38,516 bases of DNA, taken from Candidatus Yonathbacteria bacterium. GTDB taxonomy: Bacteria > Patescibacteriota > Minisyncoccia > Phycocordibacterales > UBA1550. The notes under the pieces are model-generated. The model did no database searches and was not told where the DNA came from. It saw nothing but the letters and a program-made list of their open reading frames with translations. Positions 24,969 to 37,489 of this stretch are shown here, piece after piece; the first letter of the stretch is position 1, and every line of letters starts with the position of its first letter. The translations under genes and the position numbers were made by a program. The stretch lies in contig JACRKU010000005.1 in NCBI GenBank assembly GCA_016215205.1, forward strand, positions 1 to 38,516, read 5' to 3'.

Positions 24969-25055
24969 GGAGACGTGACCGAGAGGCCGAAGGTACCTCA
25001 CTGCTAACGAGGCAGGGGATAAAACCCCTCGAGGGTTCGAATCCCTCCGTCTCCG
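24969..25055 (+). tRNA. tRNA-Ser(GCU)
   Basis: GGAGACGTGACCGAGAGG...CTGCTAA...long variable arm...GAGGGTTCGAATCCCTCCGTCTCCG; anticodon GCT. Confidence 0.95.
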
Positions 25056-25234
25056 CAAAACAAGAAGCTCAACACGAATGTGTCGGGCGACTGTGTTTTG
25101 CGAGAGATGGAGGGATTCGAAAGCGAACGCGGGCACCCGCCTGGCACGGCGGGTCGCGAGAGCAGGGCCGAGAAATTTTTATGAGTGGCGACGAATAAAA
25201 ATGTTCTTGGCCAAAAATCCCTCCGTCTCCGCAA
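25056..25234 (+). ncRNA. Structured element downstream of tRNA-Ser: inverted tRNA-3' copy, two hairpins, direct tRNA-3' copy
   Basis: 25036-25062 vs 25094-25121 inverted; 25040-25058 = 25216-25234 direct (19/19); hairpins at 25135-25154 and 25165-25212; same plan as 37264-37452. Confidence 0.7.
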
Positions 25235-25235
25235 T

Positions 25236-25266
25236 CAAAAATCACGCCATTATAGCGTGATTTTTG
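25236..25266 (+). terminator. Terminator hairpin
   Basis: caaaaatcacgc-cattata-gcgtgatttttg. Confidence 0.75.
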
Positions 25267-36847: not shown

Positions 36848-37263
36848 GGGGATGATCGGCCTAGACAGGCGGTCAACTCTGGTCAGTGCTATGCCGAGAA
36901 TGTTCAAGACCTCGTTAAATCTTGAATACACAAGTATGTGCAAAAAACACACTTGCAAAAGCTAAGGCTATCGTATCACCATACTTTGGTGCTAACGCCT
37001 TCGCTCCTGCTTACGCTCTCGTAGCCTAAACAGCATTCACATTCAGTACGCCCTCTAGGGAATCGTGGGTGATATAAAAAGAGGGCTCATCATTTGGAAT
37101 GACTCTACCAAATGAAAAAACAAAGAGTATCGGTTGTGTATGATTTGGAATACTTTATACATACACTCCTTAAATTAAGCCTAGCTTAAAAATAAGTATT
37201 CTACGCATAGTAGACTCTAGCCAGAACATCGTCTGCACGGGGGTTCGATTCCCCCCATCTCCA
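36848..37263 (+). ncRNA. ssrA: tmRNA
   Basis: 5' GGGGATGATCGGCCTAGACAGGCGG, 3' GGGTTCGATTCCCCCCATCTCCA; tag ORF ends ...PAYALVA-TAA at 37027-37029; next to smpB. Confidence 0.96.
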
Positions 37264-37452
37264 CAAGTCGCACCGCCCAAAGACGCATGTCTTTGGGCGG
37301 TTTGCGATTGTGTGAGATGTGGGGAATCGAAAAGCGCAGGCGGGCACACTGTGTACTCACAGGGTCGCCGAGCTGGGGTCGCGAACACTTTGTATTTTGT
37401 GAGTAATCGAAACAAAATACTTAGTGATTCGTGACCGATGAACCCCATCTCC
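37264..37452 (+). ncRNA. Structured element downstream of tmRNA, same plan as the tRNA-Ser element
   Basis: Inverted copy of the tmRNA 3' end at 37303-37331; hairpins 37337-37369 and 37378-37436; partial direct copy ccccatctcc at 37443-37452. Confidence 0.68.
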
Positions 37453-37489
37453 CTTGCGTGAAAAGTAGGTGCGGGAGTATACTATCCCC

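Follow-up and report, generated by a model that had tools for sequence, protein, structure and literature searches.

The stretch of DNA analysed here (the window: all 38,516 nt of contig JACRKU010000005.1, Candidatus Yonathbacteria) carries a tRNA-Ser(GCU) gene on the forward strand at 24969–25056, recognised by ARAGORN and by Rfam (RF00005), in which T54, T55 and C56 fall at 25036, 25037 and 25038. Downstream on the same strand, a linker with a weak predicted hairpin (25057–25099) leads to an inverted arm (25100–25121) that is the reverse complement of the tRNA segment between T54 and the acceptor end. The flanks of the linker, AAAACA (25057–25062) and TGTTTT (25094–25099), pair with each other, and the palindrome thus continues into the tRNA. 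Two forward-strand hairpins follow, both drawn from covariation across 109 elements and from alignment to a covariance model. P2 (25123–25163) is composed of GC, a tandem GA/GA, a CGCG stem, a GGC bulge and an ACCCGCC/GGCGGGT stem, while P3 (25166–25212) reads GGCCGAGAA-ATTTTTAT-GAGTGGCGACGA-ATAAAAAT-G-TTCTTGGCC and holds a single-base bulge and a G-U pair that most family members keep. The element closes with a direct repeat of the tRNA sequence from C56 onward (25214–25234, forward strand; exact at 25216–25234, with the first two bases changed). Immediately 3' of this copy lies a forward-strand inverted repeat, the hairpin CAAAAATCACGCCATTATAGCGTGATTTTTG (25236–25266), which is possibly the original terminator of the tRNA-Ser(GCU) gene; no clear terminator was seen between the tRNA and the element at this locus.

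A previous sequence-only reading of this DNA had described an inverted and a direct copy of the tRNA 3' end enclosing two hairpins, and that description is borne out. The tRNA segment 25036–25053 has an 18-nt inverted copy at 25104–25121 that is 94% complementary and can be extended outward to 25094 if extra bases are allowed, and AATCCCTCCGTCTCCGCAA is present twice and exactly, at 25040–25058 and 25216–25234. An exact 19-nt repeat inside 400 nt has a chance of about 400^2/2/4^19, or roughly 3e-7, and is not expected by chance. Both hairpins are present, and the 184-nt element folds well beyond its shuffled counterparts (-88 kcal/mol vs a shuffle mean of -54; z = -7.9).

A second host gene in the window, the tmRNA gene (36848–37264, forward strand; ARAGORN), is also followed by an element. 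This copy, at 37311–37455 on the forward strand (R2, 77.1 bits, E = 5.6e-20 in the window), consists of an inverted arm of the tmRNA 3' end, P2, P3 ending in GTGAC and a diverged direct copy, and is more diverged than the element at tRNA-Ser(GCU). Elsewhere in the same genome, the core of the tRNA-Ser(GCU) element is found behind tRNA-Tyr and tRNA-Val with arms matching those tRNAs, and related elements occur at further tRNAs (Leu, Glu), again with arms matching each tRNA. The 5S rRNA gene of this genome is flanked by elements at both ends (L147; G000:C23, about 1078–1167 on the reverse strand and 1410–1545 on the forward strand), which point in opposite directions and are surrounded by partial 5S copies; here the host is neither tRNA nor tmRNA.

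The sequence-only reading had suggested searching CPR genomes with a covariance model. Of 61 related genomes, 52 contained the element by a model built from the tRNA-Ser(GCU) locus, a DNA search having recovered it in 17 of the same 61. A second model built from 109 elements detected it in at least 48 of 389 genomes sampled across the phylum, a lower bound since few candidates were scored per genome. An exact core pattern matched 15 stretches in GTDB genomes, the named ones all being Patescibacteria (Parcubacteria, Yonath-, Nomura-, Taylor- and Adlerbacteria) and the others MAGs labelled only as 'bacterium'. The specificity of the models is gauged from two controls, a 20-kb stretch of E. coli with five tRNA genes, in which no element was found, and 223 kb of viral contigs, in which there was one. 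A viral origin was considered and rejected: in IMG/VR a core pattern found one true element, on a contig piece resembling host DNA, and a second pattern found no match. Rfam searches of the tRNA-Ser(GCU) and other loci returned only tRNA, tmRNA and rRNA above the cut-off and weak, chance-level matches over the element, with no family matching it and no group I or group II intron, and we found no description of the elements in the open-access literature. The family they form is real and widespread, and it is apparently undescribed.

In three whole genomes, 60 of 70 model matches followed a tRNA or tmRNA gene of the same strand by no more than 700 nt, usually at a distance of 40–57 nt. Among the aligned elements, which represent 40 host identities, 127 of 138 were preceded at no more than 450 nt by a same-strand tRNA or tmRNA; these loci were selected by model match, so the whole-genome figure is the fairer one. 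Occupation is patchy, with 7 of 40, 20 of 40 and 23 of 41 host genes carrying an element in the three genomes, and many tRNA genes in a carrier genome have none. Members outside the class are identical in plan. Orthologous tRNA-Ser(GCU) genes within one genus carry an element in most species, with differing core types, and this recurrence at the same tRNA would also be compatible with elements that have stayed for a long time and serve the host. Where the tRNA-Ser(GCU) gene has no element (L215 and L218, in G001 and G008), it encodes CCA, while most element-bearing copies lack CCA; G005 combines an element with CCA, and CCA is often encoded by members in other classes, so any such association may be local.

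Throughout the family the order of parts is the same: the tRNA to its 3' end, a linker hairpin (in many members followed by a further hairpin), the inverted arm, P2, P3 ending in GTGAC, and tRNA sequence again from C56, giving a cassette of roughly 130–200 nt. The boundaries are sharp. The last base of the inverted arm is precisely the complement of T54 in 86 of 92 cases, and GTGAC precedes a direct copy starting at C56 in 82 of 125, a precision that, together with a control against other tRNAs, rules out plain chance. Exact identity of the direct copy mostly stops at the tRNA 3' end, which it approximately reaches in only 38 of 125 copies, while in some loci identity continues to 24–48 nt (L302 is a true tandem copy). 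Since a second copy of the 3' part, from C56 and usually as far as the end of the tRNA, lies downstream, the tRNA gene remains complete. A second element type, common outside the genus (for example L288, L300 and L301), has an extra hairpin with a AACTGCTT- or AATAGTTT-like loop directly before or within the inverted arm.

This arrangement could be read as an intron-like insertion in the T-loop, whose transcript would join T55 to the distal C56 copy with removal of the element as RNA. The minimum-energy fold of tRNA plus element agrees with that idea, in that the distal copy pairs with the 5' acceptor strand of the tRNA, and the inverted arm with the proximal 3' half. Against it, the distal copy has decayed in most loci beside a complete proximal tRNA and no intron family in Rfam matches, and we consider splicing of this kind extremely improbable.

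The inverted arm follows the sequence of its host. Where host tRNAs differ in the T-arm, the inverted arm carries the base of its own host in 27 of 28 cases at position 57, 63 of 70 at position 59, 4 of 4 at position 60, 21 of 24 at position 62 and 36 of 43 at position 63. The arms of first units form Watson-Crick pairs with their own tRNA at 86.5% of positions, compared with 74% for the direct copy and 67% for other tRNAs. In two cases (L351 and L355) unusual T-loops are copied in the arm even at positions 54–55, which are absent from the direct copy. The better pairing with the own tRNA and the copied positions 54–55 indicate that the arm is matched to the tRNA and not merely to the direct copy. 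At one locus (L219, the tRNA-Ser(GCU) of G003) the direct copy bears the T-stem sequence of the G005 tRNA (L217) and differs there from the tRNA beside it, as if it preserved an earlier version of that tRNA, the inverted arm having followed part of the change. The sequence-only reading had offered as one possibility a minimal mobile unit able to restore the end of the tRNA, and had held that a lack of similar elements next to tRNAs in related genomes, or arms that do not track the host, would speak against its proposal. The outcome favours the mobile unit: such elements exist with arms that track the host, they are dispersed and occur in tandem, and this possibility is now well supported.

The P2 and P3 stems show compensatory changes and strong covariation. 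Across 109 elements, 87.6% of cells are paired vs 60.2% after shuffling, and the covariation score is 0.589 vs 0.183 for shuffled alignments and 0.08–0.13 when the pairing is slid. Statistics of this strength would ordinarily suggest a structured trailer RNA, a putative transcript made with the tRNA or alone that might, for instance, control the maturation or supply of that tRNA, its arms co-evolving by pairing. Further observations are consistent with such an RNA: 92 of 107 sequences retain the G-U pair in P3, tandem GA motifs are likewise conserved, the strand of the element is always that of the tRNA, and at the tRNA-Ser(GCU) locus the two are not clearly separated by a terminator. In many other loci, however, a terminator-like hairpin read off the sequences does stand between tRNA and element, many tRNA genes do without an element, and Rfam offers no match.

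The types of mispair also weigh against an RNA. RNA stems tolerate G-U and avoid A-C, and the tRNA stems of the same loci accordingly show a G-U:A-C ratio of 60:6, whereas the element stems show 22:16 (Fisher p = 1e-4), a count taken without P1 and without the distal part and landmark positions of P3. The corresponding ratios are 21:5 for the distal part of P3 alone and 39:27 for the inner part of P1, so P2 and the mid-section of P3 differ most clearly from tRNA stems; pairs between inverted arm and tRNA likewise lack a G-U excess (33:25). These ratios are to be read with the facts that the stem positions were chosen by the analyst after seeing the counts, that the alignment was fitted to the covariance model and that the sequences are related; selection for strong pairing could be an alternative cause of low G-U. 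The near-equal rarity of G-U and A-C nevertheless points to DNA hairpins and away from an RNA switch, and sequence comparison thus indicates that the hairpins may matter, or be maintained, as DNA. We rate a trailer RNA as rather unlikely. The two RNA functions put forward by the sequence-only reading, a two-state switch and a tRNA 3'-processing element, fare poorly on the same grounds, namely the missing G-U excess, direct copies that have decayed in many loci while the tRNA itself is intact, and the many tRNA genes without an element.

A process acting on DNA that could produce such palindromes has been described. Template switching between the arms of a palindrome reportedly homogenises the arms and creates and keeps hairpins (PMC8604942, PMC8794818), which would explain why the inverted arm follows the host tRNA.

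Several observations bear on how the elements arrived at their hosts. Cores are 98–99% identical behind three Leu tRNAs in one genome (G041) and 97% identical behind tRNA-Arg and tmRNA in another (G219), and tandem units are observed. Near-identical cores at different hosts, together with tandem copies, imply that cores have spread. In G041, the element at Leu(GAG) carries an inverted arm that belongs to Leu(TAG), although its tRNA end and direct copy are those of Leu(GAG), an arrangement that reflects either a recent jump or gene conversion. The close copies in G041 and G219 could themselves stem from gene conversion between existing elements and not from transposition, and no excision product, circle or before/after insertion pair was seen.

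The occupied sites recall those of tDNA genomic islands (tyrosine-integrase targets; Islander), in which a whole tRNA gene is accompanied by a displaced fragment running from the T-loop to the 3' end (PMC4383910). In both cases tRNA or tmRNA genes are occupied, with the whole gene upstream and a 3' fragment from the T-loop downstream, and the boundaries fit. The elements might therefore be island remnants, left-over attachment sites, now without cargo, of integrases with crossover in the T-loop, the direct copy being the displaced tRNA fragment. The cassette nevertheless differs in its length of only 130–200 nt, in lacking cargo and integrase, and in having an inverted copy of the target, a conserved two-hairpin core and near-identical cores at many tRNAs. 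The inverted arm and the core are foreign to the island picture, the distribution of tyrosine recombinases does not follow that of the family, and a foreign arm beside an own tRNA end, as at Leu(GAG) in G041, is not an outcome of conservative exchange. An origin as island remnants is, in our judgement, quite improbable.

Other short repeats offer partial parallels. Like MITEs, the cassette is gene-less and dispersed and has target sequence repeated on its far side; in contrast to MITEs, no terminal inverted repeats of their own were seen in the aligned members, the inverted repeat belonging to the host, and the repeated target is fixed, spanning C56 to the tRNA 3' end. This repeat may be a duplication or a displaced fragment. 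REP/REPIN sequences with their RAYT (Y1) transposases are also short hairpin DNA repeats, and RAYT-like Y1 proteins are common in carriers, but the RAYT genes of carriers have other, private palindromes; REPs are not known to insert at tRNA genes or to carry a copied host sequence. Integron cassettes with a folded attC resemble the family in forming tandem units and in placing site-like sequence, direct and inverted, around a folded hairpin region. attC sites carry 7-nt boxes, whereas the arms here read as a tRNA T-arm (GGATTCGAA / CGAATCC) and not as RYYYAAC/GTTRRRY; they are host-specific tRNA sequence, and no integron integrase was identified (a PF00589 search found no tyrosine recombinase in the window's own genome).

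None of the members read contains cargo or an integrase, for which the cassette is too short, and candidates for a mobilising enzyme were sought elsewhere in the genomes. Tyrosine recombinases number about one per genome in carriers and non-carriers, and reverse transcriptases show no link with the element in their distribution; both were rejected as necessary partners. Y1 transposases are commoner in carriers (40 of 52 vs 2 of 9; p = 0.003, uncorrected for ancestry), with 12 of the 52 carriers, including the element-rich G015, having no Y1 match at threshold. Among 25 Y1 loci, a clear element was near only one RAYT gene, and there beside tRNA genes. RAYT-like Y1 genes (L259, L261, L264, L266–L271 and other Y1 loci) have long, near-perfect palindromes of their own with a one-base loop, which in some cases lie within the reading frame. 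Since RAYT loci have other palindromes and some element-rich genomes have no Y1, the Y1/RAYT proteins are only a lead, and none of these enzymes is strictly tied to the family.

On balance, we consider it probable that the family consists of non-autonomous DNA cassettes built from hairpins, which insert into tRNA genes at T55/C56 without damaging the tRNA and whose inverted arms continue to match the host. Such a cassette would enter between T55 and C56, perhaps in the form of a folded single strand or a small circle, and would be moved in trans by a putative enzyme encoded elsewhere. Its inverted arm may serve as a pairing guide for the target, may be kept matched to the tRNA by template switching within the shared palindrome, or both. 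A more specific version, which we advance tentatively and think rather unlikely, is guide-directed homing: the arm would be a re-writable address across T55/C56, re-copied from each host by fold-back synthesis, and would direct a putative trans-acting enzyme that inserts the folded cassette without breaking the tRNA.

In certain genomes of a very large bacterial group, whose genomes are otherwise very small, the family of repeats occupies as many as about half of all tRNA genes. It represents a natural experiment in which a short element keeps its address matched to dozens of targets, and it illustrates that strong covariation, normally taken as proof of RNA structure, may arise from DNA palindromes. 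If an enzyme that reads the arm were found, it would represent a new way of addressing DNA insertion.
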